Below, piece by piece: positions 3 through 24,494 of a DNA stretch of 27,837 nt. The notes under the pieces were generated by a model. The model saw nothing but the letters and a program-made list of their open reading frames with translations, had not been told where the DNA came from and searched no databases. This DNA comes from Thermoplasmata archaeon. Its GTDB lineage: Archaea > Thermoplasmatota > Thermoplasmata > Thermoplasmatales > Thermoplasmataceae. The translations under genes and the position numbers were made by a program. The stretch is taken from positions 1 to 27,837 of the forward strand of contig JAKAAI010000017.1 in the NCBI GenBank assembly GCA_021797055.1, given 5' to 3'. Each line of letters starts with the position of its first letter. The first letter of the stretch is position 1.

Positions 3-536
3 AGAGAACCTCTTTTATTCATAGCGGATGGTGTACCAAAACTGGATGAGGAGATAAGGAAGATATTTCCAAGAGCTCAATTCCAGTTATGCACTATACA
101 TGCATCCAGGAATCTGGAATCCGATGTAAGAGAATCAGATAAGAATGAGATAGATCGTGACCTTAAGGCAGTATTCCTATCAGAAACAAAGGATTCTGCA
201 ATTGAAAGATTCAATCACTTCAAGGACAAATGGTCCTCCAAATATCCAAGGCCTGTATACAATATGGAAAAGAAGCTTGGATATCTGTTCACATACTTCC
301 AGTATCCTGAGAGCATCAGGAGATCATTGCATTCTTCGAATATAATTGAAAGAATGAATAAAGAGATTCGACGAAGAATAAAGGTAATTGATTCACTGCC
401 TACTGAAAGTGCAGCTATGAAGATAATATATCTCAGAGTGGCGGAATTGAATGAGAAATGGTCACACAGGGTCATAAAAGGATATTATAAATGCAAGGAT
501 GAGATCACAGACATGTTCAGGGAAAGGTATCCTTAG
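3..536 (+). CDS. IS256-family (mutator-type) transposase, 3' part
   Basis: The frame is open from the window edge to the TAG at 534-536, so only the 5' end is cut off by the window. The visible 177 residues are the C-terminal half of an IS256/MuDR-type DDE transposase. They show the second catalytic Asp in FIADGVPKLDEEI, then a cysteine-histidine signature (QLCTIHASRNL), and near the end the catalytic Glu in NIIERMNKEIRRR followed by an SLPTESAAMK stretch. This matches the family order in which D, C-x2-H and E are close to the C-terminus. It catalyses cut-and-paste movement of its own element. No frameshift or stop is seen, so the element may be intact upstream. The right terminal repeat should lie just after the stop, but cannot be defined without the left end. 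Confidence 0.9.
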   Translation, partial: REPLLFIADGVPKLDEEIRKIFPRAQFQLCTIHASRNLESDVRESDKNEIDRDLKAVFLSETKDSAIERFNHFKDKWSSKYPRPVYNMEKKLGYLFTYFQYPESIRRSLHSSNIIERMNKEIRRRIKVIDSLPTESAAMKIIYLRVAELNEKWSHRVIKGYYKCKDEITDMFRERYP

Positions 537-885: not shown

Positions 886-2037
886 ATGATTACCAAAAGG
901 AACTTCAAAGTTATCGAAATAGAAACCACCTACCCTAAGGACAAAATACTCTGTGGCATATCTCTAATCAATGAGCTCTTTCCGGAAGAGGAATTTAGTT
1001 TATCTTTTAACGGAGAAAAAGTAAGGGCATACCTTAACCTCCTGGATTTGCAAAGATTCAGGGAACAAGTCTCGAAGGTTGAAAAGAAATTAAATCTTTT
1101 GGCGGATAACCCGTTCAGAAAAATACTGGAAAATATTGAGGCCATTGGAAGTTACGGTATTAAGTCAGGGAAGAGGTCTTTTGTTGATTATAATAAGGAG
1201 AGAAAGGTCAAAGGCAGAAAGCAGAAGATTAAGGATCGTGGTATGTATTTCTATGCAGTTGACAATAAATTTTCGAAAAAGAATAATATTCTTCCAGTAG
1301 AAATGCAGGACAAAATTTTGGTTGGTGATTCTGAATTATGGCTTAAGCAGTTCCCTGATAATTGCATTGATTTGATATTCACATCTCCACCTTACAATTT
1401 CGGTTTGGATTATGGTGAACATAAAGATGGAGTAGATTGGAACCAGTATTTCGAAAAACTCTTCAGAATTTTCAATGAATGCATCCGTATAACAAAGTAT
1501 GGAGGCAGAATTGCGGTAAATGTGCAACCTTTGTATTCGGACTTCATACCGATCCATCACATTATTTCTAATTTTTTTATGAAAAACAACATGATCTGGA
1601 GGAATGAAATTTTATGGGAAAAGAACAATTACAACGCCAAGTACACTGCGTGGGGTAGCTGGAAGAGCCCCAGCAACCCCTATCTTAAATATACATGGGA
1701 ATACATTGAGGTTTTCTCCAAGGGAGATCTCAAACACCCTGGAGACCCATCCAATATAGATATACTGGATAGTGAATTTAAGGAGTGGGTAAATGCAAAG
1801 TGGAATATTGCGCCGGAAAGATCTATGAAGGAATATAACCACCCAGCGATGTTTCCTGAAAAATTAGCTGAAAGAGTGATAAAACTTTTTTCATTCCAAA
1901 ATGACGTTATTTTAGATCCTTTCAACGGTTCAGGTACAACAACAAAAGTTGCAAGGAATCTTAAGAGACACTATGTTGGTGTAGATTTATCCCAAGATTA
2001 TGTTAACCTGGCTCTAAAGCGGCTGAAAAATAGATAA
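886..2037 (+). CDS. Solitary beta-class DNA methyltransferase (N4-cytosine or N6-adenine)
   Basis: A 383-residue SAM-dependent DNA base methyltransferase. The catalytic motif TSPPY is at residues 166-170, and the SAM-binding motif DPFNGSGTT at about 344-352, followed by GVDLSQDYVNLA. The order catalytic motif first, SAM motif last is the beta class (Pfam N6_N4_Mtase). TSPPY rather than DPPY leans toward N4-methylcytosine, as in PvuII-type enzymes, but does not prove it. The first ~150 residues are charged and lysine-rich and I do not recognise a domain there. AGGA ends about 5 nt before the ATG. No endonuclease lies next to it, so it may be an orphan methylase or the remnant of a restriction system brought in with the nearby IS and tRNA. 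Confidence 0.88.
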   Translation: MITKRNFKVIEIETTYPKDKILCGISLINELFPEEEFSLSFNGEKVRAYLNLLDLQRFREQVSKVEKKLNLLADNPFRKILENIEAIGSYGIKSGKRSFVDYNKERKVKGRKQKIKDRGMYFYAVDNKFSKKNNILPVEMQDKILVGDSELWLKQFPDNCIDLIFTSPPYNFGLDYGEHKDGVDWNQYFEKLFRIFNECIRITKYGGRIAVNVQPLYSDFIPIHHIISNFFMKNNMIWRNEILWEKNNYNAKYTAWGSWKSPSNPYLKYTWEYIEVFSKGDLKHPGDPSNIDILDSEFKEWVNAKWNIAPERSMKEYNHPAMFPEKLAERVIKLFSFQNDVILDPFNGSGTTTKVARNLKRHYVGVDLSQDYVNLALKRLKNR

Positions 2038-2375
2038 AGGATCTTAATCCATCAGCATCTAAATTTCCTTACCTAGTCTATTGAAGAGGCTTCAATCGCT
2101 TCTTCAGAAGACTACATTTAGAATGTTGCCGAAATATGCATCCCACTTTTGAAATCGAATATTCATGATATCAAAGCCTTATTTAGGTGATATATTCAAT
2201 TAGACCCAACATTTTTTAGATTTTTTGCAAATGATGTTTCTGAATGTAAAATAATTACATACACTTCAAAAAATTGAAATTTGTTTATTCCTCCGTTATC
2301 ATGCCGGTCACGTTATAATTCACTTGTTATGAGACAGGCGGAAAAGCATTTATATTACCCATGTGTTGTTGATTT
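2038..2375. other. Gene-free spacer, 338 bp
   Basis: No coding region is credible here. It holds a perfect short inverted repeat TTGAAG-AGG-CTTCAA (2081-2095), a second small one TCTTC-A-GAAGA just after it, T6 runs around 2212-2225 that could end methyltransferase transcription, and at its end the TATA box of the next gene. Confidence 0.5.
2349..2356 (+). promoter_or_regulatory. TATA box of the TDO-like gene
   Basis: TTTATATT is centred about 24 bp before the ATG at 2376. With standard archaeal spacing this puts the transcription start at or next to the start codon, that is, a leaderless mRNA. This supports 2376 as the true start. Confidence 0.65.
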
Positions 2376-3062
2376 ATGTCCGAAAGCCCATATGAAAAAT
2401 ATATACATGCTGATAAAATATTATCGTTTCAGAAGAAGGAAAGCGAGCTAGTATGCGATGGAGAATTGGATTTTCAAGGAGTACAGCAGGAGGCAGAATT
2501 TATCTGGAACAGGATTAACTTTATGTTGAAAAGGATCAAACAAAATCTTGAATTAAATAACATAATTAAGGGAATTGGCCTGCTGTATCAAGCCGCGGAT
2601 CTCTGGGGAAGTTTAACCAGTAAGACACAAGAACTGTTGAAACGCCTTTGGCCAAATGATTTTTTGAAGATAAGAAAAATAATCGGAGAGGGGGCAAGTA
2701 CTGCCGATTCGCCAAGATACAGGGAATCAGAGCGACTTGGTAGAATTATATGGCCCTCTTTCGAAAAACTCCTAAAGTTGAACTCCTTAACACTCGAATC
2801 TCTTATCTCTCAGGATAAAGAAAACGATCAATTTTCAGGAATGAGATCACTGATAAGCGCAATGATGTGGTATGACTATCGCGTTCAGGAATTTTCCATT
2901 GCGCATCTTTATCTCGTTTTTGGTATAATAGGGGACAGGACAGTTGGGCTTAAAGGTGGCACAACTGATTTCCTGATTAGCAGATATCAGAAATACATTT
3001 TTCCTAAACTCTGGGATTCGATAAATAACCTTTACTTGGATTTCCAGCCAGTAAAACAGTAA
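2376..3062 (+). CDS. Compact tryptophan 2,3-dioxygenase-superfamily heme protein
   Basis: A 228-residue protein of the heme-dependent aromatic oxygenase (TDO) superfamily. Compared from memory with Xanthomonas TDO, three blocks align: the N-terminal YEKYIHADKILSFQ (6-19); the middle WPNDFLKIRKIIGEG...RYR with one insertion (about 89-116); and a 50-residue ungapped block around IAHLYLVFGIIG...FPKLWD. His177 matches the proximal heme ligand and Arg116 the Arg that binds the substrate carboxylate. The distal-pocket His is Gln37 or Gln38, and the GTGGSSG substrate loop reads VGLKGGT. At 228 residues it is shorter than bacterial TDO (about 280-300). No kynurenine-pathway genes are nearby. The fold assignment is fairly firm; the tryptophan substrate is not, and indole or tyrosine-type oxygenases of the same superfamily are alternatives. 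Confidence 0.8.
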   Translation: MSESPYEKYIHADKILSFQKKESELVCDGELDFQGVQQEAEFIWNRINFMLKRIKQNLELNNIIKGIGLLYQAADLWGSLTSKTQELLKRLWPNDFLKIRKIIGEGASTADSPRYRESERLGRIIWPSFEKLLKLNSLTLESLISQDKENDQFSGMRSLISAMMWYDYRVQEFSIAHLYLVFGIIGDRTVGLKGGTTDFLISRYQKYIFPKLWDSINNLYLDFQPVKQ

Positions 3063-5495: not shown

Positions 5496-6635
5496 TCACA
5501 CCAAACCTCTCAGCAGAGTAGAAAAGTAAAAATCGGAATAATATCTCTTGAACCTGAAGTCCGCCTGACTCTCTTTTGGCAATTCAGCTTTCTTTGAATA
5601 AGAGTAGGAAAGAGTCATACCCCTGTCAATACCGGTCATTGCCGTCAGGGTAACATTTCCCTCATAAAAAGTGCTGTTTGTCTGGCTTCCAATATCATCT
5701 GATATCCTTCCGGATACGTATCTGGACTGTGTAACAAAGGAACCAGAAAGACCAGATATGAGGTGATCGACAGCATCCCCAATCAGATAAACATCATCAT
5801 AATCTCTAATCTTTAAAGTATTTTTGTTGACATTATTGCTTCCATCATCTCCAACAAGTTCATCTGACTTTAGAAAATCTCTCGTTCTCATCGGCGGTGG
5901 CAAAACAAGGACATCATAGTTCATGCTTCCGTTCTGGGAAACTATCTCCCTGTTTTTCTGATTGACAGAAGTGACCTTGAAATTTGAAACCGTTTCTATA
6001 TTTTTCTGGCTGAATTTATCTTCAAAGAATGAATTCAATTCCTTAACTGGAAATACCCCATCTTCCGGATATACAAATTTTATTTTTGTCTTGCTAGAGA
6101 AACCCAGATTTCTTAACTGGTCGGACAGTACAAATGCAAACTCATAGAAGCCGATTATATTTGGAACTGGCATATCATTAATTGCTACAACCACAGTTCC
6201 GGAAGTAAAATCCTCCATCGTTTTTCCAAGTTCAAGCGAATGCTGTAGATCAAGGATATGCTTCGCCTCACCCTCGTATCCAGGCATAAGTTCAGGTGAC
6301 ATCTGCATTCCTGGCGCAAGAACCAGATAGTCATAGTCCAATTTCTTACCCCCTTTCAAATATAAAAGGCGGTTATTAGGTCTCACCTGTGTGACTTCGT
6401 CCCTGATGAACTCAATATTCTCATTCAGCAGGAAGTTTAGGGGCATAACGGAATCTCCAAATCTCTTCAACCTGAGGGATACTAGGGGTCCGTCTGACCT
6501 GCAGAAATTACGGAGGTTAGAGCCAACCATAGTTATTCTAGCCTCTTTTGGACTAAGCTTGTATCTTAATTTGTTCGCTATCATGACACCCGCTGCGCCG
6601 TCACCGACGATAACTATACTCTTCATAACTACCAA
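5496..6635 (-). CDS. SQR-family FAD oxidoreductase lacking the redox cysteines
   Basis: A 379-residue two-dinucleotide-domain flavoprotein. The N-terminal IVIVGDGAAG binds FAD, YDYLVLAPG is the usual second FAD strand, and VYLIGDAVDHL is the GD motif near the C-terminus. The middle domain follows sulfide:quinone oxidoreductase (SQR) rather than NADH dehydrogenase: it has no second GxGxxG, and VVVAINDMPVPNIIGFYEFAF aligns with the SQR segment that normally carries a catalytic Cys before GAPxE. Here that Cys is Asn159. The whole protein has a single cysteine (C45), so normal sulfide chemistry is unlikely. It probably feeds electrons to the quinone pool from another donor. A GGCGGTG site 8 nt upstream favours the TTG start used here; an in-frame ATG follows at 6626. 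Confidence 0.8.
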   Translation of the reverse strand: MVVMKSIVIVGDGAAGVMIANKLRYKLSPKEARITMVGSNLRNFCRSDGPLVSLRLKRFGDSVMPLNFLLNENIEFIRDEVTQVRPNNRLLYLKGGKKLDYDYLVLAPGMQMSPELMPGYEGEAKHILDLQHSLELGKTMEDFTSGTVVVAINDMPVPNIIGFYEFAFVLSDQLRNLGFSSKTKIKFVYPEDGVFPVKELNSFFEDKFSQKNIETVSNFKVTSVNQKNREIVSQNGSMNYDVLVLPPPMRTRDFLKSDELVGDDGSNNVNKNTLKIRDYDDVYLIGDAVDHLISGLSGSFVTQSRYVSGRISDDIGSQTNSTFYEGNVTLTAMTGIDRGMTLSYSYSKKAELPKESQADFRFKRYYSDFYFSTLLRGLV

Positions 6636-6843
6636 TTTTATAACACCGCCTGCTTTTCTGTGAGCGTTTGATTGAAGCGAATATTCAAATTTGACTTTAA
6701 ATTGTATGACTCTGCCATATAATCTATATCGTTTTATTTATAATAGAATTTTCGCACTATTTTTCTTTTCTCGCAAGACTCACACGAAGTCTCAACACTC
6801 TATGGGAACCGCAATTACACCATATCATTTCAAAGCAATCTGC

Positions 6844-6872: not shown

Positions 6873-7172
6873 ATGGAAACTTCAATAAGGGTAATTTCCA
6901 AGGAAAAAGATTCGATAACATTTGAAATGGTTAAGTATGATAATACCATTTTAAGGCCAGTTGTAGAAGAGCTTCTTAAGGACGAGCAGGTAGCCGAGGC
7001 AAAATATTTCATAAAACATCCAATAATAGATAACCCGCAGATTTATGTCAAAGTAAAGGCTGGTAAGCCCCAAGCAGCCATAAAAAGATCGATTAACAAA
7101 CTCAGGAAGACATACGAAAATATGGCAGCTGATCTGGTGAAGGAAAAGAAAAAAATTGAAGAAAAGAGATAA
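6873..7172 (+). CDS. rpoL: DNA-directed RNA polymerase subunit L
   Basis: A 99-residue subunit L of archaeal RNA polymerase (homologue of eukaryotic Rpb11 and of the bacterial alpha N-terminal domain). It pairs with subunit D to start assembly of the enzyme. The sequence follows the family: ISKEKDSITFEMVKYDNTIL, then LRPVVEELLKDEQV, a strand with YFIKHPIIDNPQIYVKVK, and a long C-terminal helix with a lysine-rich tail. The start at 6873 is chosen because the TATA box covers the earlier ATG, and METSIRVISKEK fits the usual N-terminus. The next gene starts 2 nt after the stop. Confidence 0.93.
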   Translation: METSIRVISKEKDSITFEMVKYDNTILRPVVEELLKDEQVAEAKYFIKHPIIDNPQIYVKVKAGKPQAAIKRSINKLRKTYENMAADLVKEKKKIEEKR

Positions 7173-7174
7173 GA

Positions 7175-8134
7175 GTGCTTTTCTGCTTAGAATTTTCTAA
7201 AGAAAACATAAAGGCCGCAGAGTTTGAATTCCGTTCCATATCAAAACTGGATTCAAATTTTCATGAACACTGGATAAACAACAATGGCTCCGTTTTTCAT
7301 GGGGATATTTCCCTGTACAAGACTATGGCATTTGTAAGAAGAATAGGCTCTGTATTGTTTTCCTTCAACAAACCTGAAGAATTAAAGAATTGTAAGTTGC
7401 CAGAAGGGAAATATTATGTTAGAAAAGTTAAACTTTCTATCCCGGATGAAGATTTTACTGAATCGATGATTGGGGAATTTCTCAAATCAGAAGGGAAGGT
7501 CTCATTCAAAGCACCGGATTTCATCATTCTTGCATTTTTCGCCGACAAGTGGTACATATGCAAACAGGAATTTGTGAAAAACAGCAGAGAACTTGAATCA
7601 AGAAGGGCCCCTATGAGGCCTTTTTTTTCACCTGTCACACTACATCCAAAGTTTGCAAGATTCATGGTGAATATTTCCGGTACAAAAAGAGGAGATACGG
7701 TACTGGATCCATTTTGTGGCACTGGTGGCATTCTTTTAGAATGTCTGTTTCTTGGACGAAATGTTATAGGGAATGACGCCTCTTTTGTAATGGTCAAGGG
7801 GACAAGACTGAATCTCAAGTATTATGGCTTTACATCAGAGATATATTGCAACGACATAAGAAATCTGAAGATCGAAAGAAAGGTCGATGCGGTTATAACG
7901 GACATGCCTTACGGCAGAAGTTCGCCAGTGAAGGGCGACATAGAGTCACTTTACGCAATCTCTTTCAAGAAATTCTCAGAATTCCTAAAGCCCGGGGGTT
8001 ATTGTGTAATTATCCTGGAGAATTTAAACTGGCTGAACCTGAACGAGAGTCTTGAGGTCATAAATATAATATCGATGCAGGTTCACAGGTCACTTATAAG
8101 AAATTATGTAATCCTCAGAAATTCTGTGACGTGA
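7175..8134 (+). CDS. tRNA (guanine10-N2)-methyltransferase, Trm-G10/Trm11 family
   Basis: A 319-residue enzyme with an N-terminal THUMP-like RNA-binding half and a C-terminal Rossmann methyltransferase. After the linker RRAPMRPFFSPVTLHPKFAR, typical of Trm11/Trm-G10, comes the SAM motif DPFCGTGGILLE (from D178) and the catalytic TDMPYGR (D243), a variant of the (D/N)PPY motif. The archaeal enzyme methylates and dimethylates N2 of G10 in tRNA. The length fits the archaeal family. GTG start, only 2 nt after rpoL, with just a weak GAGAT upstream; the pair should be one transcript, linking transcription and translation machinery genes. Confidence 0.88.
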   Translation: MLFCLEFSKENIKAAEFEFRSISKLDSNFHEHWINNNGSVFHGDISLYKTMAFVRRIGSVLFSFNKPEELKNCKLPEGKYYVRKVKLSIPDEDFTESMIGEFLKSEGKVSFKAPDFIILAFFADKWYICKQEFVKNSRELESRRAPMRPFFSPVTLHPKFARFMVNISGTKRGDTVLDPFCGTGGILLECLFLGRNVIGNDASFVMVKGTRLNLKYYGFTSEIYCNDIRNLKIERKVDAVITDMPYGRSSPVKGDIESLYAISFKKFSEFLKPGGYCVIILENLNWLNLNESLEVINIISMQVHRSLIRNYVILRNSVT

Positions 8135-8204
8135 AAATGAAGCCCAATCTCTGCATTCCTATATATTTCGAACAGGAAAAAATCATCAACATGCTGTATC
8201 AATC

Positions 8205-8212
8205 TTTATATA
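8205..8212 (+). promoter_or_regulatory. TATA box of the grpE-dnaK-dnaJ operon
   Basis: TTTATATA is centred about 27 bp before the grpE ATG, giving a leaderless operon transcript. No obvious palindromic heat-shock operator is seen between 8135 and 8235. Confidence 0.7.
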
Positions 8213-8235
8213 GAAGAACAAACTTACCAGTTTAA

Positions 8236-8769
8236 ATGACACAGCAATCAAAGCGGGCATTAGTAGATCCTGTAAGAAATGAGATCGGGCAGTCAAGATC
8301 CAGGAGAGCTGTGTTGCTAAAAGAACAGGTTGATCATCTGAAATCTGAATACAACTACCTTAAGCACAAATCCAATAGGGACAGGGAGGCATTAATGCAT
8401 CAGATCGCAGATCTCGAAAACCTCCTGAAAGCCAAGGAGAGGGAGTATAATATACGAACAAAGAATGCAGAAAAAGATCTCATACGAGACCTTCTTCCAC
8501 TCATAGATTCTCTTGAGGCAGGGCAAAAGGCTAACGACAAGGACTCAAATCTTACTGCTTTCAGGGATATGATATTAAATATACTAAAAAAGCATGGTCT
8601 CAATAAGATCGAGACAATCGGAAAGAGATTTGATCCTTTCAAGCATGAGGTTGTAGGAGTGACAGAAAAGGGCGAAGAAGGTATTGTTCAGGAAGAGATT
8701 CAGGGTGGTTACATGGTAAATGAAGATGTTATCAGAACAGCTAAAGTAATAGTTTCAAAAGGTGAGTAA
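8236..8769 (+). CDS. grpE: Nucleotide exchange factor GrpE
   Basis: A 177-residue GrpE. Residues about 20-75 form the long dimerising coiled-coil helix (charged heptads, [22 protein letters not shown]). The family core follows: [15 protein letters not shown], then [11 protein letters not shown] and the C-terminal beta segment ending [20 protein letters not shown]. It removes ADP from DnaK and so resets the chaperone for substrate release. It is first in the operon. Its last codons contain GGTGA, which serves as the ribosome-binding site of dnaK. Confidence 0.93.
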
Positions 8770-8770
8770 A

Positions 8771-10678
8771 ATGAGTAAAATAATAGGTATAGATTTGGGC
8801 ACAAGTAATTCGGCAGCTGCAGTGGTTATATCGGGAAAACCAACGGTTATTCCAAGTTCAGAAGGTGTATCTGTTGGCGGTAAGGCATTCCCGAGTTATG
8901 TCGCTTTCACTAAATCGGGGGAACTCTTAGTTGGTGAACCTGCGAGGAGGCAGGCATTGCTTAATCCAGAAGGAACAGTATATGCTGCTAAAAGGAAGAT
9001 GGGTACAGACTACAAATACAAGATATTTGGGAAGGAATACACACCACAGCAGATTTCCGCATTCATTTTGCAGAAGATTAAGAGGGATGCTGAACAGTAC
9101 CTGGGTGAAACGGTTAAGGAAGCAGTTATAACAGTACCTGCTTATTTCGATGACAATCAGAGGCAGGCGACAAAGGATGCTGGCCTTATTGCCGGGCTTG
9201 AGGTGAAGAGAATCATAAACGAACCAACTGCTGCTTCACTTGCTTATGGTATAGACAAGGCAAAAGAATCACAGAAAATACTTGTTTTCGACCTTGGTGG
9301 TGGAACCCTTGATGTGACAATTATGGAATTTGGCGAAGGCGTGTTCGAGGTCATATCTACTTCTGGCGACACTCAGCTTGGTGGAACAGATATGGATGAG
9401 GCCATAATCAACTTCCTGATTAATGACTTCAAGAAAAAAGAGGGTGTTGATCTAAAGCAGGATAAGAATGCATACATCAGATTGAAGGATGCAGCTGAGA
9501 AGGCAAAGATTGAGTTATCCAGCACAATTTCGACCGAAATAAACCTTCCTTATATAACAGCTACGAACACAGGACCGAAACACCTTCAATATACACTGAC
9601 AAGATCAGAATTTGAGAATTTAATTGCACCAATCATTGAAAGGGCTAAAAAACCACTTGAATCCGCTCTTGAAGCCGGAAAGTTGAGCAAGGACGATCTT
9701 ACCAAAATAATTCTGGTGGGTGGCCCAACCAGGATACCATATGTCAGGAAATTTGTTGAGGATTTCTTTGGTAAGAAGATTGAGGGTGGAGTGGACCCCA
9801 TGGAATGTGTTGCAATAGGTGCAGCACTTCAGGGAGCAGTTCTTGCAGGTGACATAAAGGACATCGTCCTGCTAGATGTCACTCCCCTTACCCTTGGCAT
9901 AGAGACCCTGGGTGGAGTAGCAACCCCCCTCATACCAGCAAACACAACAATTCCTACCAGGAAGTCGCAGATATTCACAACTGCCGCAGACATGCAAACT
10001 GCAGTCACTGTGCATGTAGTTCAGGGTGAAAGACCAATGGCAGCTGACAACGTTTCCCTTGGAATGTTTAACCTTGTTGGAATACCTCCAGCCCCACGCG
10101 GAATACCGCAGATTGAGGTGACATTCGATATAGATGCGAATGGGATACTGAACGTTTCTGCAGTCGATAAGGGAACAAACAAAAAGCAGAGTATTACCAT
10201 ATCTGCAACAAATAAACTTTCCAAGGAAGAGATAGAAAAAATGAAGAAACAAGCCGCAGAATTTGCTGAAGAAGATAAAAAGAAGAAGGAGCTGGCTGAA
10301 ACTGTCAATGCAGCAGAGACACTCGCATATACTGTCGAGAAGACGGTCAACGAAGCAGGAGACAAGGTCGACAAGGATACAAAAGATAAAATTATGGATA
10401 AGGTCAAAGCAATAAGGGACGCTATAAGCGCAAAGGACCTGGACAAGATCAAACAGCTGCAGGAAGAACTCAGCAAGGAGATACAGGAAATAGGATCCAA
10501 GATATACCAGACTGAATCACAGACCGCAGGACCGCAGGGTGGAGGTCCTGGAGCACCGGGCCCCCAGGATGGTGCGCAATCAGAAACTGTTGATGCGCAA
10601 TCCGGGAGTCAGGGTGAGGGCCAGGGCGCCGAAGGTCAGAATGATACCGTGGTCGACGGTGACACCCAGACAAAGTAA
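8771..10678 (+). CDS. dnaK: Hsp70 chaperone DnaK
   Basis: A 635-residue Hsp70. The ATPase domain starts with [11 protein letters not shown] and has the phosphate loop [12 protein letters not shown] and the adenosine-contact [13 protein letters not shown]. The substrate-binding domain holds [14 protein letters not shown], followed by the helical lid. The first quadrant lacks the roughly 25-residue insert of proteobacterial DnaK, as in Gram-positive and other archaeal DnaKs, where archaeal copies are generally read as acquired from bacteria. The last ~50 residues are a Gly/Gln/Pro-rich tail ending in DTQTK. The ATG at 8771 is preferred over the GTG at 8762 because GGTGA (8761-8765) sits 5 nt before it; only 1 nt separates it from the grpE stop. 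Confidence 0.96.
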
Positions 10679-16747: not shown

Positions 16748-17545
16748 ATGGATAACGGTGATATAATCCAAAAGATGGCCGAGCTTATGGAGTCCGGAAG
16801 GGAATTTGCCCTCGCCACAGTTGTCAGTGCCGAGGGTTCCACGCTAGCAAAGCCAGGATTCAAACTTATACTTTCCAGTGAAGGCGAGCCACTGTTCGGT
16901 ACGCTGGGGGGTGCATGCCCCGAAAGCGCTATATCGTCTCTTGCACAGGACGTCGTGAAGCACAACAGGGCGAAAGCAGTAAAAGTCCATCTGGAGCAAA
17001 CTGAGGCATCTCTTCAGGGTATAATATCAAGGAAGAGTGATGATGAAATTTTTGTTGAAACCTTTTGTGGCGGTACAATAGAGATATTCATAGAGCCGTA
17101 TATGAATGCCAAGGTTCTAACTGTAATAAAGCAGGGTGGCAAGGATGATGTTGCCGACTCTATATTTGCGATCTCGAAGCTTGCAGGAATTAAATGCGAG
17201 ATTCTTGATCTCTCTGATATATCAAAGGGAGAAGATCCTCTGAGGACATATAGATTCACGGACAGGCACTACGTCGTTGTTCTTACCAAAGGAAATGAAG
17301 ATATCAGGGTTCTCGAACATCTGTCAACATTAAAACTACCATACATTGGACTCATGGCTAGCAGGAAGAGATTTGAGTATGATTCAAATGAACTGAAAGG
17401 TAAAGTAAGTGAAAAGTTCCTGAAATCAATACACAGTCCAATAGGGATAAGTATCGGTGCCATATCCCCTGGTGAAATTGCAATTAGCATAATATCGGAA
17501 GTAGTAATGGCAATGAGGCAACCCGGTATAAAAAAGAATGCTTGA
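16748..17545 (+). CDS. XdhC/CoxI-family molybdenum hydroxylase maturation protein
   Basis: A 265-residue protein with the two XdhC domains. The N-terminal domain has FALATVVSAEGSTLAKPGFK and the conserved CGGTIEIFIEP with Cys107. The C-terminal Rossmann-like domain ends with the signature IGISIGAISPGEIAISI. XdhC of Rhodobacter binds the molybdenum cofactor, promotes its sulfuration and hands it to xanthine dehydrogenase; CoxI-type members serve carbon monoxide dehydrogenase-like enzymes. The usual GSTPRxxGAxM and GGGCLE motifs are modified here (GSTLAKPGFKL, GGACPESAI). It lies directly before the three subunits of such a hydroxylase, with 32 bp and a second TATA box between, so the two transcripts can be separate. 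Confidence 0.87.
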   Translation: MDNGDIIQKMAELMESGREFALATVVSAEGSTLAKPGFKLILSSEGEPLFGTLGGACPESAISSLAQDVVKHNRAKAVKVHLEQTEASLQGIISRKSDDEIFVETFCGGTIEIFIEPYMNAKVLTVIKQGGKDDVADSIFAISKLAGIKCEILDLSDISKGEDPLRTYRFTDRHYVVVLTKGNEDIRVLEHLSTLKLPYIGLMASRKRFEYDSNELKGKVSEKFLKSIHSPIGISIGAISPGEIAISIISEVVMAMRQPGIKKNA

Positions 17546-17549
17546 ATGA

Positions 17550-17559
17550 TTATATATTA
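17550..17559 (+). promoter_or_regulatory. TATA box of the hydroxylase subunit operon
   Basis: TTATATATTA lies about 23 bp before the ATG at 17578, just after the XdhC-like gene stop. It suggests that the three subunit genes have their own leaderless transcript. Confidence 0.6.
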
Positions 17560-17577
17560 TAATTAAATGCGATATTT

Positions 17578-18447
17578 ATGTATCCGCAGGAATTTGAATA
17601 CTATGCTCCAAAAACAATTGATGAAGCGCTTTCGTTTCTTTCGACGCACCAAAATTCTAAAGTTCTTGCAGGCGGCCAGAGCCTCATTCCTATCATGAAG
17701 ATGAGGGTGGCATCCTTCGATTATCTGGTGGATCTATCAAATATAAGCGATCTTAGATATATCAGGAAGGATGGTTCTGAAATCCATATCGGCGCAATGA
17801 CAACAACTGGAGATATTGAATCCTCATCGATTATAAGGAAAGAATTGATGGTTCTTTCAGAGACAGCATCACAGATAGCTGATCCGCAGGTCAGGAATAT
17901 GGGAACGATTGGTGGAAACTGCTCCCACGGTGATCCCGGTAATGACATGCCTGCTGTTATGCTTGCGCTGAATGCCAGATATGTAATCAGGGGAAAAGAA
18001 GGAAGAAAGGAGATAAAGGCATCCAGCTTCTACAAAGGATCATTTGAAACAGCACTCGACGAAGGGGAAATACTGACTGAAATAATTGTACCTACAACAC
18101 CACACAGAACCGGGGCAGCTTATGTTAAGCATAAGAGAAGAGCCGGTGACTTCTCGATAGCTGCTGTGGCAGCGTTTATTTCACTGGACGGATTAAGCCA
18201 CTGTGAATCGGCTGGGATCGGAATGACATCAGTTGGCCCGACCAGTATTAAAGCTGTTGAGACCGAAAGGTACCTTGAGGGCAAACAGCTTACAAGGGAT
18301 GTTATTAACAAAGCAGCTGAAATCATGATTTCTGAATCAGATCCAATGGATGACTCATATTCAAGTTCAGAATTCAAGAAGGATATTCTTGGACTCGTTG
18401 GGAAAGAAGCGATTGCTAAAGCATTCGATCGCGCATCTGGGGTGTGA
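17578..18447 (+). CDS. Molybdenum hydroxylase FAD-binding subunit (CoxM/CutM type)
   Basis: A 289-residue medium subunit of a xanthine dehydrogenase/CO dehydrogenase-family enzyme. The FAD pyrophosphate loops AGGQSLIP (31-38) and TIGGN (110-114) are intact, and the second is preceded by IADPQVRNMG as usual. YVKHKRRAGDFSIAAVAA marks the C-terminal CODH FAD domain. This subunit takes electrons from the iron-sulfur subunit and passes them to the final acceptor. The length is normal for the family. The next gene starts within a few bases, with a GGTG site overlapping the stop. Confidence 0.93.
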   Translation: MYPQEFEYYAPKTIDEALSFLSTHQNSKVLAGGQSLIPIMKMRVASFDYLVDLSNISDLRYIRKDGSEIHIGAMTTTGDIESSSIIRKELMVLSETASQIADPQVRNMGTIGGNCSHGDPGNDMPAVMLALNARYVIRGKEGRKEIKASSFYKGSFETALDEGEILTEIIVPTTPHRTGAAYVKHKRRAGDFSIAAVAAFISLDGLSHCESAGIGMTSVGPTSIKAVETERYLEGKQLTRDVINKAAEIMISESDPMDDSYSSSEFKKDILGLVGKEAIAKAFDRASGV

Positions 18448-18452
18448 TAAAA

Positions 18453-18965
18453 ATGGCCAACAAAATTAAAATAAATGTGAAGGTGAATGGAAAAGACGTT
18501 GAGAGAGAGATCGAGCCAAGGTTATTGCTTGTTGATTTTATCAGAAGCGAGCTCGGTTTAACAGGAACTCATGTTGGGTGCGATTCATCAAACTGCGGTG
18601 CCTGTACCGTTCTGCTCGGAAATAAGGCGGTAAAATCATGTACCCTTCTGGCCGCTCAAGCAAACGGGAATTCTATCACAACAATTGAGGGCATTTCAAA
18701 AGGAGACAAATTGCATCCACTTCAGAAAGCATTCCTGGATAAAGACGGCCTCCAGTGCGGTTATTGTACTGCAGGTATGATAATGGTGGCATACTGGTAC
18801 CTCAAGAAGAATCCTGATGCAACTAGAGATGAGATCAGAGAAGCAATCTCTGGAAACATCTGCAGATGTACCGGCTACGATAGCATAGTTGATTCCATAG
18901 AGGAAGCTTCAAAGCACATGGAGGACGAAGAGGAGGAAATTGTAGCCAGAGAGGTGAAGCGATGA
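18453..18965 (+). CDS. Molybdenum hydroxylase 2Fe-2S subunit (CoxS/CutS type)
   Basis: A 170-residue small subunit with two [2Fe-2S] clusters. The ferredoxin-like cluster uses C43, C48, C51 and C63 (GCDSSNCGACTVLL...C). The four-helix cluster uses C102, C105, C137 and C139 (QCGYCTAGMIM; NICRCTGY). All ligands are present. It carries electrons from the molybdenum centre to FAD. The ATG at 18453 is chosen over an in-frame GTG at 18444 that overlaps the upstream stop, because GGTG (18441-18444) is then a ribosome-binding site 8 nt away. The C-terminal tail is acidic (EDEEEE). It overlaps the large-subunit start by 4 bp. Confidence 0.95.
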   Translation: MANKIKINVKVNGKDVEREIEPRLLLVDFIRSELGLTGTHVGCDSSNCGACTVLLGNKAVKSCTLLAAQANGNSITTIEGISKGDKLHPLQKAFLDKDGLQCGYCTAGMIMVAYWYLKKNPDATRDEIREAISGNICRCTGYDSIVDSIEEASKHMEDEEEEIVAREVKR

Positions 18966-21001
18966 GCACAGTGGTGGACATAGTAAAGGGCAGGGGCAGG
19001 TTTGTTGATGACATAGTCCTTCCAGAAATGCAGCACCTCGCAATCATAAGGAGTAATTTCTCTAGAGGTAAGATACTGAAAATAGAAGGGGAATGTTACA
19101 CGTTCAAAGATTTCCCGTCATATATTACATCAGTAGGGGAGGGTGCAACAGAAGGAGAGCTCAATCTCAGGGAGCCTGTACTGGCAGACAAATATGTGAA
19201 TTATCTGGGTCAGCCCATAGCAGGGGTTCTTGGAAAGGACAGATATGAGGCTGAGGATCTTGCTGATTCTATCGGCGTTGATATTGAGCCACTCAAACCA
19301 GTAATGGATCCGGAGATTTCAATGAAATCAGAACCGATTCACCCTTCGATGAAGAATAACATACTTTCAGAGATAACCATCGGAAAAGATTTCAACGGTG
19401 AGAAATATGACATCAGGCTAAAGGACCATTTTGATAATAAGAGGGTTGCTACTAACCCGATTGAAACCAGGGGAATTGTAGCCTCATATTCCGATGGAAA
19501 GCTGACAGTATGGATCCCGACACAGTCAGTGCATAGTATCAGGGAAGGGCTATCCGATGTGTTAAACATGCCCAAGGAAAAAATAAGGATTATTCAGACA
19601 GACACGGGAGGTGCATTTGGGCTTAAAGGATCAGTCTACTCTGAACACGCACTCGCGGCATTTCTTGCGATAAAGACAGGAAAACCCGTTAAGTGGCTTG
19701 AGAGCAGAAGAGATCACCTTACTTCAAGCCATCCCGGGAGAGGCACATCAGCGGAAGTGGAGCTGTTTGCTGATAAAACTGGAAAAATACATGGTATCAA
19801 GGGAAGACTAGTCGTTGATGCCGGTGCATATTCCGGCGGTAGCGGGGAATTTGCTGCGCGTTTCGTAGGCATGCAGATGTGCGGTGCTTATGATATTCCA
19901 AATGCATATATCGAGGCCAAATCCGTCCTGACGAATAAGCCTGTGCAGGGTCCTTACAGGGGTGCAGGCAGGCCGGAAGCTCATTTTTTCGTTGAAAGAA
20001 TGGTTGATAAACTTGCTGATGAATTGCACATGGATCCTGTGGATGTAAGGCTTTTAAACACAAGCAACAAGGAACATACCTCACCTCTGGGAGTTTACGT
20101 TCCTCCTGCTAAATCGTTCCTCATGGAAGCAGTTGATAAACTGAATTACAGGAATCTCAAGAAAGATAAGCCTGGCTTTTCAATATTTGTTCTCGTGCCA
20201 GCTTTTCAGCCAGGAGAAACTGCAAGAATTATCGTTGATAAAAGTAAGGTCAGAGTCTGGCTTGGCGGAAATTCACATGGACAGCGCCACGAGCAATTTG
20301 TCAAAAGAATAGTGAAGGAAAACCTTGGAATCGATGAATCTCTCGTCACACTGGAGATGGGCGATACTGACATGCTTGAAGATGGGATTGGTTCATGGGG
20401 AAGCAGATCAGCAATGGTTGGTGGTATGGCCGTATATGACGCATGTCAGAAGATAAAAGAGGGCGTTGTGAAGAAATACGGAAAGTATTCAAAAGAACTC
20501 CTTATGGATGACGGTGCCGATGTCTATACGCACTGGAGGGAGAAGGGATCAATGGACTCCCTTGGTTGCAACCTCGTCACCTGCAAGGTTAGCGACCGGG
20601 GGCAGGTGACAATCAAAGAGTGCAGCGCTTATTATGATGTTGGAACTCCTTTGTCCGAATCCAATGTAAGGGGACAGGTTGAAGGAGGTATGGCCCAGGG
20701 AATAGGCCAGACCCTTTACGAAGAACTTCTATATAACGAGGATGGCGAAATGCTGACAACTTCCATATCGGATTCAGGTGTTCCACTCGCCAATCAGCTC
20801 CCGGATTACAAGGTTTTCCTTGCAGATTCAAAATCGACACTAGCCATAGGGTCCAAAGGGGTGGGTGAGTCGCCTACCATAGGCATCCCGCCTGCACTGG
20901 CCAGAGCAATCGAGAACCAGACTGGGGTACATATCACCGAGACGCCCGTAAGACAGGAAATTCTGATAAAGCGGAGTAAAGGAACCATTACGTCAGATTA
21001 G
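18962..21001 (+). CDS. Molybdenum hydroxylase large (molybdopterin) subunit, short form
   Basis: A 679-residue large subunit of the xanthine dehydrogenase family. Cofactor-contact segments are QTDTGGAFGLKG (about 217), QGPYRGAGRPEA (R333 region) and the C-terminal KGVGESP with Glu636, the catalytic base. The active loop is PYRGAGR, the form-II/aldehyde-oxidoreductase type; the AYxCSFR loop of true CO dehydrogenase is absent. CO as substrate is therefore unlikely; aldehyde, purine or other heterocycle is possible. Two oddities: the usual GQGH reads G440-Q441-R442-H, and the protein is about 80-100 residues shorter than typical, with some 30 missing before that motif. GAGGTGA (18951-18957) precedes the ATG, which overlaps the small-subunit stop. 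The 3' end overlaps a convergent gene by 9 bp. Confidence 0.92.
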   Translation: MSTVVDIVKGRGRFVDDIVLPEMQHLAIIRSNFSRGKILKIEGECYTFKDFPSYITSVGEGATEGELNLREPVLADKYVNYLGQPIAGVLGKDRYEAEDLADSIGVDIEPLKPVMDPEISMKSEPIHPSMKNNILSEITIGKDFNGEKYDIRLKDHFDNKRVATNPIETRGIVASYSDGKLTVWIPTQSVHSIREGLSDVLNMPKEKIRIIQTDTGGAFGLKGSVYSEHALAAFLAIKTGKPVKWLESRRDHLTSSHPGRGTSAEVELFADKTGKIHGIKGRLVVDAGAYSGGSGEFAARFVGMQMCGAYDIPNAYIEAKSVLTNKPVQGPYRGAGRPEAHFFVERMVDKLADELHMDPVDVRLLNTSNKEHTSPLGVYVPPAKSFLMEAVDKLNYRNLKKDKPGFSIFVLVPAFQPGETARIIVDKSKVRVWLGGNSHGQRHEQFVKRIVKENLGIDESLVTLEMGDTDMLEDGIGSWGSRSAMVGGMAVYDACQKIKEGVVKKYGKYSKELLMDDGADVYTHWREKGSMDSLGCNLVTCKVSDRGQVTIKECSAYYDVGTPLSESNVRGQVEGGMAQGIGQTLYEELLYNEDGEMLTTSISDSGVPLANQLPDYKVFLADSKSTLAIGSKGVGESPTIGIPPALARAIENQTGVHITETPVRQEILIKRSKGTITSD

Positions 21002-21778
21002 GGCGGTTCTTCCCAGATCCCGGTATTTTTCTGTTAGGTAATCGTATTCATGCTTGACGCAGGATCTGCAATCATTCTTTCTTGAAATCTCTATTTTATC
21101 TATAGATAGTGGCCAAGTTTCAATGTGATAGAGGAATCTTCCTTCATTCTTATCTGCAATCATCCTTATCGCTTCAGAAAAGGCAAGTGACGAAATCATA
21201 TTTGGAACAGAAGAAAGAACACCGACCTGTTCGCATGTAGGGTAACCAGCTAATTTCGCTGGAGCGAAGCATGCGAAGCATGCTGAAATCCCTGGTCTGA
21301 TCAATTTCACCTGGCCATACGTTTCGAGGGCCGAAGTAAATACCCATGGAACATTATTGTAGTTGCAGGCATCGTTTATTATGAATCTTGTTGTGAGATT
21401 ATCTGTTCCATCTATAACAAGATCACATCTCTTTGTTATATCAAGCGCATTCCCTGCATCAAATGTTGTGAACATCGCCTCGCATGAAACTTCGCTGTTA
21501 ATTCTTGACAATTTTTCCAGTGCAGCATCTGCTTTCCTCCTGCCAATGTCGTTTTCATTGAACAGTATCTGTCTGTGTATGTTCGTTAGGTCAACGAAAT
21601 CCCTGTCAACAAGCAATAACTTTCTGATCCCTGCCCTGCAGAAAAGGTCGGCTGAAAGTGAGCCAGTTCCTCCTAAACCTATTATCGCAACTGATAATGA
21701 CCGTATTTTCTTCATTGTTTCTTTGCCGATATTGTGAAGAATTTCTAGCCTCGAATATCTGTTTGTTGATGAAGCCAT
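20993..21778 (-). CDS. moeB: MoeB/ThiF/HesA-family sulfur-carrier adenylyltransferase
   Basis: A 261-residue E1-like enzyme. IIGLGGTGSLSADLFCRAG (32-50 region) is the ATP loop, VDLTNIHRQILF and DGTDNLTTRFIINDAC are family signatures, and two Cys pairs (CFAC, CRSC) should bind zinc. No rhodanese domain follows. It activates the C-terminal glycine of a ubiquitin-like sulfur carrier with ATP. With moaA, moaD, moaE, moaC, moaB and moeA next to it, MoaD of molybdopterin synthase is the likely partner, although archaeal members also serve ThiS or tRNA thiolation carriers. A TTAATATC-like box (21801-21810, minus) lies 27 bp before the ATG. It is divergent from moaA and convergent with the hydroxylase. 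Confidence 0.87.
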   Translation of the reverse strand: MASSTNRYSRLEILHNIGKETMKKIRSLSVAIIGLGGTGSLSADLFCRAGIRKLLLVDRDFVDLTNIHRQILFNENDIGRRKADAALEKLSRINSEVSCEAMFTTFDAGNALDITKRCDLVIDGTDNLTTRFIINDACNYNNVPWVFTSALETYGQVKLIRPGISACFACFAPAKLAGYPTCEQVGVLSSVPNMISSLAFSEAIRMIADKNEGRFLYHIETWPLSIDKIEISRKNDCRSCVKHEYDYLTEKYRDLGRTALI

Positions 21779-21800
21779 ATCAACCGAAATAGCATTGCGG

Positions 21801-21810
21801 TGATATTAAG
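21801..21810 (-). promoter_or_regulatory. Probable TATA box of the moeB-like gene
   Basis: Minus strand CTTAATATCA centred 27 bp before the ATG (21778); leaderless transcript expected. Confidence 0.5.
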
Positions 21811-21904
21811 TATACCAGTAAACGATCTAAATTTTTGAATTCATGCTAAAAACAATAAGTTAAGATATAAATTTGAAACCTTTTAGCAGAACAATACCGC
21901 GAAA

Positions 21905-21914
21905 GCTTAATAAC
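21905..21914 (+). promoter_or_regulatory. Probable TATA box of moaA
   Basis: GCTTAATAAC centred 27 bp before the ATG at 21937; no Shine-Dalgarno is present, which fits a leaderless mRNA. Confidence 0.5.
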
Positions 21915-21936
21915 CAAGGCTAAATATGATACTCAG

Positions 21937-22911
21937 ATGCTTACTGATAATTACGGTAGGAACGTTTCGAGTCTCAGGGTTCAGGTAAACACCACATGTA
22001 ACTTTGGTTGTTTCTTCTGTCACATGGAGGGCACAGGAATCCAGGCCAATGAAATGTCAGCCGACCAGATCATCAGGATAATTGGGACAGCACATAAGCT
22101 TGGCATCAACAAGGTTAAATTTACCGGCGGGGAACCAACACTGAGAAGAGATATAGTTGATATAGTGAGGCGTACGAGAGAGATAATCACCGGTGACATA
22201 TCTATGACAACGAATGGCACAAGGCTGAAGCATCTTGCCTCCGACCTAAGAAAGGCTGGACTGGACAGGATAAACGTATCAATGCATTCAATCGACAGGG
22301 AGGGTTTCCGTTTCGTAACCGGCGTTGATGCAATACATAAGGTTTTGGAGGGAATTGAGAGCGCGAGAAATGCAGGATTTGAAAACATAAAAGTAAATTT
22401 CGTCGCTTTGAAGGGCGTTAATATTGAACAGATTCCTCGAATGATCGATCTATCAGCAAAAGAGAGATTTCTTCTGCAGATAATCGAATATGAGGTTCCT
22501 AGGGAGCAGGAGCAATCAGAGGATTATGTAAGATATCATTATCCATTGGATGATCTTGAAGCAGAGCTATCTTCCAGGGCATACAGGATCGATCACAACA
22601 GTATTCATGAAAGACCAATTTTCCGGATAAGGAATGAAGCAGGTGAAGCAAGCGTAGAAATAGTTAAACCAATGAGGAATTACGAATTTTGCAATAAGTG
22701 CACAAGGATGCGTGTGACCTCACTCGGAGAGTTGAAGCCATGTCTGATGACAACGGGCGATCTTACGCCAGTTTTCAGGAGCGGGAAGGCGACAACGGAT
22801 GAGGAGATAGAAAACGCATTCAGGATTGCAACTCTGAAGAGAAAACCTTACTGGACCAGGGAGGATAAAATTGAAAGTCAGATACTTTGCGAGACTGAGG
22901 GAACTAACTAG
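21937..22911 (+). CDS. moaA: GTP 3',8-cyclase MoaA (radical SAM)
   Basis: A 324-residue radical SAM enzyme for the first step of molybdopterin synthesis (GTP to 3',8-cyclo-GTP, with MoaC to cPMP). The radical SAM cluster ligands are C21, C25 and C28 (CNFGCFFC). The second, GTP-binding cluster is C252-x2-C255-x13-C269, the exact MoaA spacing, with the CTRMRVTSLGELKPC segment. FTGGEPTLR is the SAM-contact GGEP motif. The protein ends in EGTN, not the usual double glycine tail that many MoaA proteins have. Its last 41 nt also encode the start of moaD in another frame. Confidence 0.96.
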   Translation: MLTDNYGRNVSSLRVQVNTTCNFGCFFCHMEGTGIQANEMSADQIIRIIGTAHKLGINKVKFTGGEPTLRRDIVDIVRRTREIITGDISMTTNGTRLKHLASDLRKAGLDRINVSMHSIDREGFRFVTGVDAIHKVLEGIESARNAGFENIKVNFVALKGVNIEQIPRMIDLSAKERFLLQIIEYEVPREQEQSEDYVRYHYPLDDLEAELSSRAYRIDHNSIHERPIFRIRNEAGEASVEIVKPMRNYEFCNKCTRMRVTSLGELKPCLMTTGDLTPVFRSGKATTDEEIENAFRIATLKRKPYWTREDKIESQILCETEGTN

Positions 22912-23107
22912 AACGGATGAGGATTTTTTTCAGCTGGACAGTGAGGAGACAATATCCAGCATTCTGGTTAGAGTGAAGGAGAAGTATCCCTTTATTGCAG
23001 ATGAGAAAAATTTACTGATTGCATTAAATGAAAAATACGCGAATATGAATGATCCTGTCAGGGATACCGATACAGTTGCAATATTTCCGTCCGTAAGTGG
23101 CGGTTGA
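22871..23107 (+). CDS. moaD: Molybdopterin synthase small subunit MoaD
   Basis: A 78-residue ubiquitin-fold sulfur carrier. It starts MKVRYFARLRELT and ends VAIFPSVSGG with the Gly-Gly that is adenylated and thiocarboxylated. The start is TTG, supported by a strong GGGAGGAT site 4 nt upstream (22859-22866) inside moaA. With MoaE it converts cPMP to molybdopterin. It is convergent with moaE, with only 2 bp between the stops. Confidence 0.93.
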   Translation: MKVRYFARLRELTRTDEDFFQLDSEETISSILVRVKEKYPFIADEKNLLIALNEKYANMNDPVRDTDTVAIFPSVSGG

Positions 23108-23109
23108 GA

Positions 23110-23517
23110 TCAGTTATGCCATATCGCTGTTTTTTCATCTATTATGTCTTTCTTCCAGATGGGGGCTTCCGCTTTAATCCTGTTCAGTATCTCTGAGCAT
23201 CCATCAAACCCCTCTTTCCGGTGCTGTGCACTTACAGCTATCATAATCGATGCTTCACCAATACCCAACCTGCCAATGCGGTGAACAGCAACAGCATCGA
23301 TAAGTGCGAATTTCTTTATGCTGCTCGCAAGTATGTTCAGCATTGTGGATTCTGCCATCTCAATATACGCCTCATACTCCAGCGATGTGATTGTATTATC
23401 TCCAGTTTTTTCCCTGACAGTCCCAATAAATGTGACTATGGCTCCAGTGTTTCCGGGGTGAAGTTTTTTCAGTACATCATCAACGACAATAGGCCCAGAT
23501 ACGATCAATGCCATCAT
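23110..23517 (-). CDS. moaE: Molybdopterin synthase catalytic subunit MoaE
   Basis: A 135-residue MoaE. Signatures in order are GAIVTFIGTVREKTG, SLEYEAYIEMAE, VHRIGRLGIGEASI, HRKEGFDGC and the C-terminal KAEAPIWKKDI with the catalytic lysine region. It transfers sulfur from thiocarboxylated MoaD to cPMP. It is on the strand opposite moaA/moaD and divergent from moaC across 59 bp. There are two successive ATG codons at the start (23517 and 23514); either can serve. Confidence 0.95.
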   Translation of the reverse strand: MMALIVSGPIVVDDVLKKLHPGNTGAIVTFIGTVREKTGDNTITSLEYEAYIEMAESTMLNILASSIKKFALIDAVAVHRIGRLGIGEASIMIAVSAQHRKEGFDGCSEILNRIKAEAPIWKKDIIDEKTAIWHN

Positions 23518-23539
23518 AGCCGGAATATATACAAATACA

Positions 23540-23549
23540 ATAATTAACT
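23540..23549. promoter_or_regulatory. Shared A/T core between divergent moaE and moaC
   Basis: ATAATTAACT-type sequence. Read on the minus strand (TTAATTATTG) it is about 27 bp from the moaE ATG; on the plus strand about 31 bp from the moaC ATG. One box may serve both directions. Confidence 0.35.
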
Positions 23550-23576
23550 TGCCATTGATCTCTTAAGGCTGGAAAT

Positions 23577-24014
23577 ATGATAGACATATCTGGTAAAAAA
23601 GAAATAGGAAGGGAAGCCATCTCGTCCGGATTCATACATCTCTCGGAAGAATCATTGAAGGCCATAGCTGAGGGGAAGGTAAAGAAGGGAGATGTCCTCG
23701 CGACTGCAAAAGTCTCAGGTGTGATGGCTGCCAAACGCACGCCTGATATAATTCCATTCTGCCATCCAATACCGCTCCAGAAGGTCGACGTCTCTTTTGC
23801 CATCCATAAGGATGGAATAGAGGCAAAATGTTCGGTTAAGGCATCATACAGGACGGGAGTGGAAATGGAAACCCTTGCATGTGTTTCCTCTGCTCTCCTC
23901 ACTATCTGGGATATGACCAAATACATAGAAAAAGACGAAACAGGTAATTATCCAGATACAAGAATAACTGATATACATGTAATAAGAAAGGTGAAAGATG
24001 CCACACTCTCATAG
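23577..24014 (+). CDS. moaC: Cyclic pyranopterin monophosphate synthase MoaC
   Basis: A 145-residue MoaC. It opens MIDISGKKEIGREA, carries KRTPDIIPFCHPIPL with C62-H63, and ends with GVEMETLACVSSALLTIWDM and KDETGNYPDTRI, which build the active site. It turns the MoaA product into cPMP. The usual length is 150-160 residues. Its last 17 nt overlap moaB. Confidence 0.96.
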   Translation: MIDISGKKEIGREAISSGFIHLSEESLKAIAEGKVKKGDVLATAKVSGVMAAKRTPDIIPFCHPIPLQKVDVSFAIHKDGIEAKCSVKASYRTGVEMETLACVSSALLTIWDMTKYIEKDETGNYPDTRITDIHVIRKVKDATLS

Positions 24015-24489
24015 TTCAAGGGATATTATACCAGATTTTGGGGTACTTACATGCAGCAGCACGCGTTCAAAAGATGAAGACGATAGCGGAAAAATTATTA
24101 TATCACTCCTGGAGCAGTTTGGATACACTGCAAAGGCATATGATGTGGTAAAGGATGATTTTGATCGTATTTCCGCGAAGGTCGTGGAGATGTCTTCCTC
24201 CTGCGATATTATAATTGTGAACGGTGGCACTGGAATAACAAGATATGATGTAACAATAGAATCTGTCAGATCCATATCTGATAAGGAATTAACCGGATTC
24301 GCAATACAGTTCCAGGTACTTTCTATGCAGGAAATGCAATCTGCTTCCATGCTCTCACGAGCCTCAGGCTTTATAGTAAACAGGAAAGCTGTCTTCTGCC
24401 TGCCAGGATCTAAGGATGCGGTTTCGCTTGGCATGAATAAACTGATCATACCGGAAATTGCGCACATAATGCACGAACTGAGGAGATAA
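23998..24489 (+). CDS. moaB: Molybdopterin adenylyltransferase MoaB
   Basis: A 163-residue MoaB/Mog-type enzyme that adenylates molybdopterin before metal insertion. Seen are KDEDDSGKII, the nucleotide loop VNGGTGITRYDVTIES, FAIQFQVLSMQEMQSASMLSRASG and the closing VFCLPGSKDAVSLGMNKLIIPE with H near the end. In archaea MoaB replaces MogA in this step. GGTG stands about 4-5 nt before the ATG inside the end of moaC, so moaC, moaB and moeA form one translationally coupled operon. Confidence 0.93.
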   Translation: MPHSHSSRDIIPDFGVLTCSSTRSKDEDDSGKIIISLLEQFGYTAKAYDVVKDDFDRISAKVVEMSSSCDIIIVNGGTGITRYDVTIESVRSISDKELTGFAIQFQVLSMQEMQSASMLSRASGFIVNRKAVFCLPGSKDAVSLGMNKLIIPEIAHIMHELRR

Positions 24490-24494
24490 TTGGT

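Follow-up and report, generated by a model that had tools for sequence, protein, structure and literature searches.

The DNA analysed here, called the window, comprises the 27,837 nucleotides of positions 1 to 27,837 of contig JAKAAI010000017.1 from a Thermoplasmata archaeon (assembly GCA_021797055.1). Our subject is a gene near its start (Table 1), with ATG as start codon, whose product (the query) resembles tryptophan 2,3-dioxygenase (TDO) and MarE, both of the heme-dependent aromatic oxygenase (HDAO) superfamily. Judged from its sequence, the query represents a well-conserved, monophyletic variant from archaea within this known superfamily of enzymes; its distal pocket is distinctive and fixed, and its function is a prediction.

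Table 1. Features of the query gene and of its surroundings in the window; rows are those of the alignment of the query with its 68 homologues
Feature	Position	Strand	Remarks
Gene for 228-residue TDO/MarE-like protein	2376..3062, including stop codon	+	Open reading frame, profile matches, structure model
TATA-like box TTTATATTA	2349..2357	+	19-27 bases upstream of ATG; by eye, without chance control
Q37 codon, distal-His position (MarE His55)	2484..2486	+	Gln in 68/68 rows with a residue (of 69)
R100 codon, MarE Arg118 equivalent	2673..2675	+	Arg in 69/69 rows; HMMER alignments to MarE
S108-T109 codons, loop matching MarE DATG and human TDO PASG	2697..2702	+	Thr in place of Gly
H177 codon, predicted proximal heme ligand (MarE axial His201)	2904..2906	+	His in 68/68 rows with a residue (of 69)
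GLKGG loop codons, residues 191-195	2946..2960	+	Equivalent to MarE SLGGR and TDO GTGGS
R203 codon, MarE Arg243 equivalent (heme propionate contact)	2982..2984	+	Arg in 68/68 rows with a residue (of 69)
IS256/Mutator transposase, broken C-terminal remnant	264-533		IS256 profile positions 277-336 of 338
N6/N4 DNA methyltransferase gene	886-2037		Upstream of query gene; counterpart in locus L001 at 5649-6800
Molybdenum hydroxylase region	16748-26273		

The reading frame is the one described in the initial annotation, which was made from the sequence alone, and it behaves as a real gene, since 68 homologues were found (E <= 0.001, among 670 candidates, 56-96% identity), the ratio of nonsynonymous to synonymous substitution (dN/dS) against the copy in locus L001 is 0.08 (dS 0.86; the other five pairs were saturated), and a TATA-like box lies upstream. 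The box suggests that the gene has its own, leaderless transcript; an A/T-rich TATA-like stretch was seen at a similar place in 4/4 loci inspected, likewise by eye and with no chance control. Proteins of the query-type family are mostly 216-228 residues long. Among plasmid records, 14 of 72,556 matched the query, at 25-29% identity.

The query matches both TIGR03036, the equivalog model of TDO (E 1.3e-9), and PF03301 (Trp_dioxygenase; E 1.2e-6), and reaches the cut-off of neither (37.9 against 390.7 bits and 28.6 against 34.9 bits). The query clade suggests that the name 'tryptophan 2,3-dioxygenase', given by the source to many query-type proteins, is over-assigned. The best solved structure by sequence is MarE (8vyy/9ca3; E 2.7e-12 with the query sequence alone), and a 25-row family profile matched MarE at E 1.4e-17 and TDOs at about 4e-5. 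Structure prediction on an 88-row alignment (the query, 52 of the 68 homologues and 35 of the next 54 matches) gave a confident model, whose fold is that of TDO and MarE, placing the protein among the HDAO folds; it supersedes an earlier model (pLDDT, the predicted local distance difference test score, 76) made with 25 rows, namely the query and 24 hand-picked homologues. A profile match and a fold model had been named beforehand as checks on superfamily membership, and both agree with it. A Pfam scan of 25 members of the family gave no domain other than PF03301 and a weak PF07014 (plant Hs1pro-1_C), the latter as sub-threshold matches in 10/25 members at E 0.01. Such matches (best E 1.7e-5; seen with P0050, P0067 and L024) hint that this plant nematode-resistance protein may have the same fold as the query family.

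Tyrosine-like phenols are the substrates of one HDAO branch, TyrH/SfmD/LmbB2. The query could have such a substrate, given that its fold belongs to the same superfamily and that a substrate is not readable from sequence, but MarE and TDO are its closest structures in sequence as in fold, and we hold this reading to be very improbable. PMC12312684 mentions TyrH and SfmD; TyrH-type chains were not among the matches listed in the structure comparisons, which is not evidence of their absence.

For the active site, MarE numbering follows PMC11904535, and equivalences were taken from HMMER alignments to MarE together with the alignment behind a 64-row tree. Conservation was counted over the query and all 68 homologues (69 rows, in which fragments leave single gaps), and two sets served for comparison: 54 matches with a distal His, here called H type (P0069-P0122, from the best 120 of 3444 matches listed), and 74 MarE matches. 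The exchange of the distal His for Gln, noticed in the initial annotation, is fixed in the set found, whereas the position is His in 54/54 H-type rows among the matches listed and in 73/73 MarE-type rows with a residue (of 74). We found a second fixed change, absent from that annotation, in the oxygen-side loop: S108-T109 aligns with Thr126-Gly127 of the MarE DATG loop, and T109 is Thr in 69/69 rows where the relatives have Gly (54/54 H-type rows among the matches listed, 73/73 MarE-type rows). The proposal that H177 is the proximal His also agrees with the alignments, in which it falls in the proximal-His column. As had been seen as well, the GTGGSSG loop is replaced; the form GL[KRQ]GG occurs in 68/68 rows with residues (K193 being K in 65/68, R in 2/68 and Q in 1/68), and the GTGGS loop and the distal His of TDO are both absent. 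MarE SLGGR superposes on human TDO GTGGS (PMC11904535). One assignment had to be replaced: the carboxylate-binding Arg had been placed at R116, which the MarE alignments and the conservation counts rule out, since it is R100 that aligns with MarE Arg118, the residue binding the substrate carboxylate (PMC11904535), and R116 is Arg in only 44/69 rows, His in 18/69 and another residue in 7/69. F33 corresponds to MarE Phe51 and Y6 to MarE Tyr24, which enters the pocket from the neighbouring subunit (PMC11904535), and the Tyr/Phe pocket residues Y6, Y9 and F33 are conserved in the query family. The Arg equivalent to R203 is not general among MarE relatives (16/73).

The distal pocket carries two fixed changes, and the neighbourhoods of query-type genes hold no partner pathway genes, which might be taken to mean that oxygenase activity has been lost and that the protein is now a heme-based sensor, a heme carrier or a ligand-binding protein. 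We regard this as rather improbable, since R100, F33, Y6, Y9 and the substrate loop, for which a mere heme holder would have no need, are as conserved as the heme ligand itself, and since the Pfam scan revealed no further domain. The query protein probably still oxidises an aromatic amino-acid-like molecule.

In the 64-row tree a branch supported at 100/99 sets off the query clade (23 rows), support for the MarE group (17 rows) is 100/99 and for TDO (5 rows) 100/100, and the query clade and the MarE group are joined with 98/98; in earlier trees the clade had 100/98, and its link to a single MarE row 87/80 and 99/96. The rows comprise the query, 22 of the 68 homologues, eight of P0069-P0122 plus four loci, 17 of the 74 MarE matches and 12 plasmid-borne rows. 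Compared with an earlier 55-row set, two odd Streptomyces rows, bStrepNBC01006_b (with Leu at the distal place) and bStrepNBC00727, and bStrepNBC01343 were left out, as were aSLK_P0069, aSLK_P0071, Q_P0065, the truncated Q_P0067 and a MarE fragment; L009 was dropped from later alignments, and its distal His was read by eye. Clade and group names apart from MarE and TDO are labels coined in this analysis. The query clade shares its Leu-type loop with MarE, the SLKGY group and the SLKGR rows from bacteria, and a GT[KQR]G loop occurs in five further rows. The tree with MarE thus shows the query type as a monophyletic clade and, along with the profile match, the TDO/MarE-fold model and the column of H177, supports the archaeal HDAO subgroup with an altered distal pocket that had been proposed. 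Two traits put forward as distinctive did not serve as such: the small size is real, but compactness and the loss of GTGGSSG are both found in other short TDO-like groups and were rejected as the defining novelty. Among the matches listed from open-licence literature, no title or abstract opening names the archaeal group, which does not disprove its description elsewhere.

We favour, with fair though not high confidence, the reading that the product belongs to the HDAO superfamily as a heme oxygenase with a His ligand, that it falls with MarE where MarE and TDO part, and that mono-oxygenation is its more likely reaction. In TDO and MarE, ferrous heme binds O2 beside the indole, and a loop Thr of TDO, replaced by Leu in MarE, holds the substrate amino group (PMC12312684; PMC11904535). 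By analogy, ferrous heme ligated by H177 would bind O2, an aromatic carboxylate (tryptophan or an indole acid) would lie over the heme, with R100 and the GLKGG loop keeping it in place, and one oxygen atom would be placed on the aromatic ring. With Q37 for the distal His and the T109 hydroxyl where relatives have a bare Gly, the set of hydrogen bonds to oxygen and substrate would be altered, although the indole N-H could still find an acceptor in Q37, and the bound oxygen a hydrogen-bond donor in T109. Mono-oxygenation, giving a 2-oxindole or C3-hydroxy product, would be a more likely outcome than clean N-formylkynurenine because a loop Leu, as in MarE, stands where the Thr of TDO holds the amino group. 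The cited texts report that changing GTGGS of TDO towards SLGGS or GTGGA shifts the enzyme to mono-oxygenation, that replacing SLGGR of MarE by GTGGS raises dioxygenation nearly four-fold, and that ascorbate drives MarE to mono-oxygenation (PMC12312684; PMC11904535). More tentatively, we consider it possible, if short of probable, that an archaeal HDAO branch has fixed the Gln/Thr pair in place of His/Gly, with the Thr hydroxyl and the Gln amide steering O2. The enzyme would then be dedicated to oxygenating an aromatic acid, probably as a mono-oxygenase and for a purpose other than the breakdown of tryptophan, and its hosts may have an ordinary TDO as well. What determines mono- versus dioxygenation in TDO-like heme enzymes is still an open question, which made mutants have been used to probe (PMC12312684). 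The query clade is a natural experiment on it, an archaeal version of the scaffold in which a distal Gln and a Thr are fixed, and the small size of its proteins is likely to make them easy to handle.

A different possibility is that the query is a plain TDO, if one with Gln at the distal position, and supplies N-formylkynurenine when tryptophan is broken down. The carboxylate Arg, the pocket aromatics and the proximal His are all kept, and in MarE the distal His is not strictly required for product: the H55A variant shows about 20-fold poorer substrate binding and yet forms more product (PMC11904535). Structures of H55A and H55S TDO exist (3bk9, 3e08). Moreover, the copy in L002 adjoins genes that, by eye, resemble branched-chain amino-acid catabolism. 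On the other hand, the query loop is without the Thr of GTGGS, no kynurenine genes were recognised by eye beside the query-type gene in 3/3 loci, and kynureninase (TIGR01814) was over cut-off in none of the hosts G001-G003 (weak matches in G002 and G003, no match in G001), which is modest evidence, as only 2/14 control genomes passed the cut-off (5/14 with matches). Host G003 also has a separate full-length TDO with distal His (L037:8328-9191; motifs FVIAHQTYELW and PASGFQSLQFR; 217 bits to TIGR03036, cut-off 390.7), so that plain tryptophan dioxygenation there need not depend on the query-type gene. Taken together, a plain TDO seems to us unlikely. A link to the kynurenine pathway found no clear support in a wider set either: TIGR01814 was over cut-off in 0/8 genomes, with weak matches in 5/8. 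A candidate in L018, near an H-type gene, fits SufS (110.9 bits) better than kynureninase (99 bits), and we draw no conclusion from it. In L037, the His-type TDO of this Thaumarchaeota genome adjoins a TrpB-like pyridoxal phosphate enzyme (by eye; 7153-9191).

Several points weigh against the mono-oxygenating, MarE-side enzyme that we favour. The placement of H177 comes from alignment and not from model coordinates or a modelled heme, the model being of protein only. The 68 homologues were picked by likeness to the query, so that their invariance is partly built in, and intermediates with Gln and Gly or with His and Thr may lie beyond the best 120 of the 3444 matches. The stems of MarE (1.51 changes per column in the 64-row tree) and of the query clade (1.47) are both long, which makes the link to MarE less sure than the clade itself and could reflect partial long-branch attraction. 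MarE without ascorbate carries out mainly dioxygenation (PMC12312684), and a Leu-type loop alone is therefore no guarantee of mono-oxygenation. There is no conserved neighbour in loci L001-L003 that would name a substrate. The heme supply of the hosts is weakly shown: AhbD-like matches reach 138.7 + 91.8 bits (split) in G001, 258 in G002 and at best 48.7 in G003, against a cut-off of 500 bits, and they are a weak sign because the same search matches 14/14 control genomes. A search for COX1 gave no match in G001 or in G003, genomes whose completeness is unstated.

The query type is patchily distributed. Named genome relatives with the gene are Thermoplasmatales archaeon UBA582 (L001), uncultured archaeon ASS_A1 (L002) and Thaumarchaeota archaeon SubAcS15-15 (L003), and source names of the homologues include Thermoplasmataceae and Nitrososphaerales. 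Matches occur in 6/389 genomes of the phylum of G002 (one of query type, G002 itself, and five of H type), in 2/117 of the order of G001 (one being G002) and in 1/300 of the class of G003, namely G003 itself. The query-type gene is the sole TIGR03036 match in G001 and in G002.

The initial annotation had placed the gene in an accessory-looking region near an insertion sequence and a tRNA. A tRNA-Val and the IS256 remnant are indeed present, but the order methyltransferase - query gene - GNAT is kept in L001 (neighbours recognised by eye), so that nothing obvious marks the locus as newly inserted, and a recent accessory insertion is unsupported. No restriction partner for the methyltransferase was noticed by eye among the neighbouring open reading frames. 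In L002 the query-type gene lies between an iron-sulfur oxidoreductase/acyl-CoA block and genes resembling BCAT, lipoyl synthase and 2-oxoacid dehydrogenase (mostly by eye), and in L003 its neighbours look unrelated (by eye). Further along the window, the molybdenum hydroxylase region includes an XdhC-like protein and a large subunit matching best to glyceraldehyde dehydrogenase alpha, both under cut-off, followed by molybdenum-cofactor-like genes (by eye).

Other TDO-family genes were encountered in bacterial clusters: adjacent pairs lie within Streptomyces nonribosomal peptide synthetase clusters (L023 6091-8078 and L034 3968-5970), the second gene of L023 having Leu at the distal-His place, and a Micromonospora plasmid cluster (L027 1307-6880) holds a nitric oxide synthase oxygenase, a globin, a TDO-family protein and a class V aminotransferase. 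Among known systems, IDO and PrnB of the HDAO superfamily were not among the matches of the query or of the family profile to structures, which we do not count against them. Bacterial and animal TDO (XcTDO, human TDO) share the carboxylate-binding Arg with the query. Set against four TDOs of 276-284 residues, the query is shorter by about 50 residues, and it differs further in its distal Gln, in Thr for Gly, in the missing GTGGSSG and in its low TIGR03036 score. The short H-type TDO-like proteins (L007, L008, L010 and L011, archaeal, from the phylum of G002, and P0069-P0122) are likewise mostly short, with a mostly Leu-type loop (mostly SLKGY) and the same proximal His and carboxylate Arg, but they keep distal His and Gly in all 54 of the matches listed, form a separate clade and are about 25-30% identical to the query; acyl-CoA enzymes adjoin H-type genes in 4/5 loci (L018, L019, L020 and L022; one by search, the rest by eye). 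The closest relative of solved structure is the bacterial enzyme MarE, the beta-methyl-tryptophan 2-oxindole mono-oxygenase (8VYY, 9CA3; 24% identity in the VIA alignment), from which the query differs in having Gln for the distal His55 and Thr for Gly127, and in having neither the insert that precedes the loop in MarE nor the Asp124-Arg235 loop contact.
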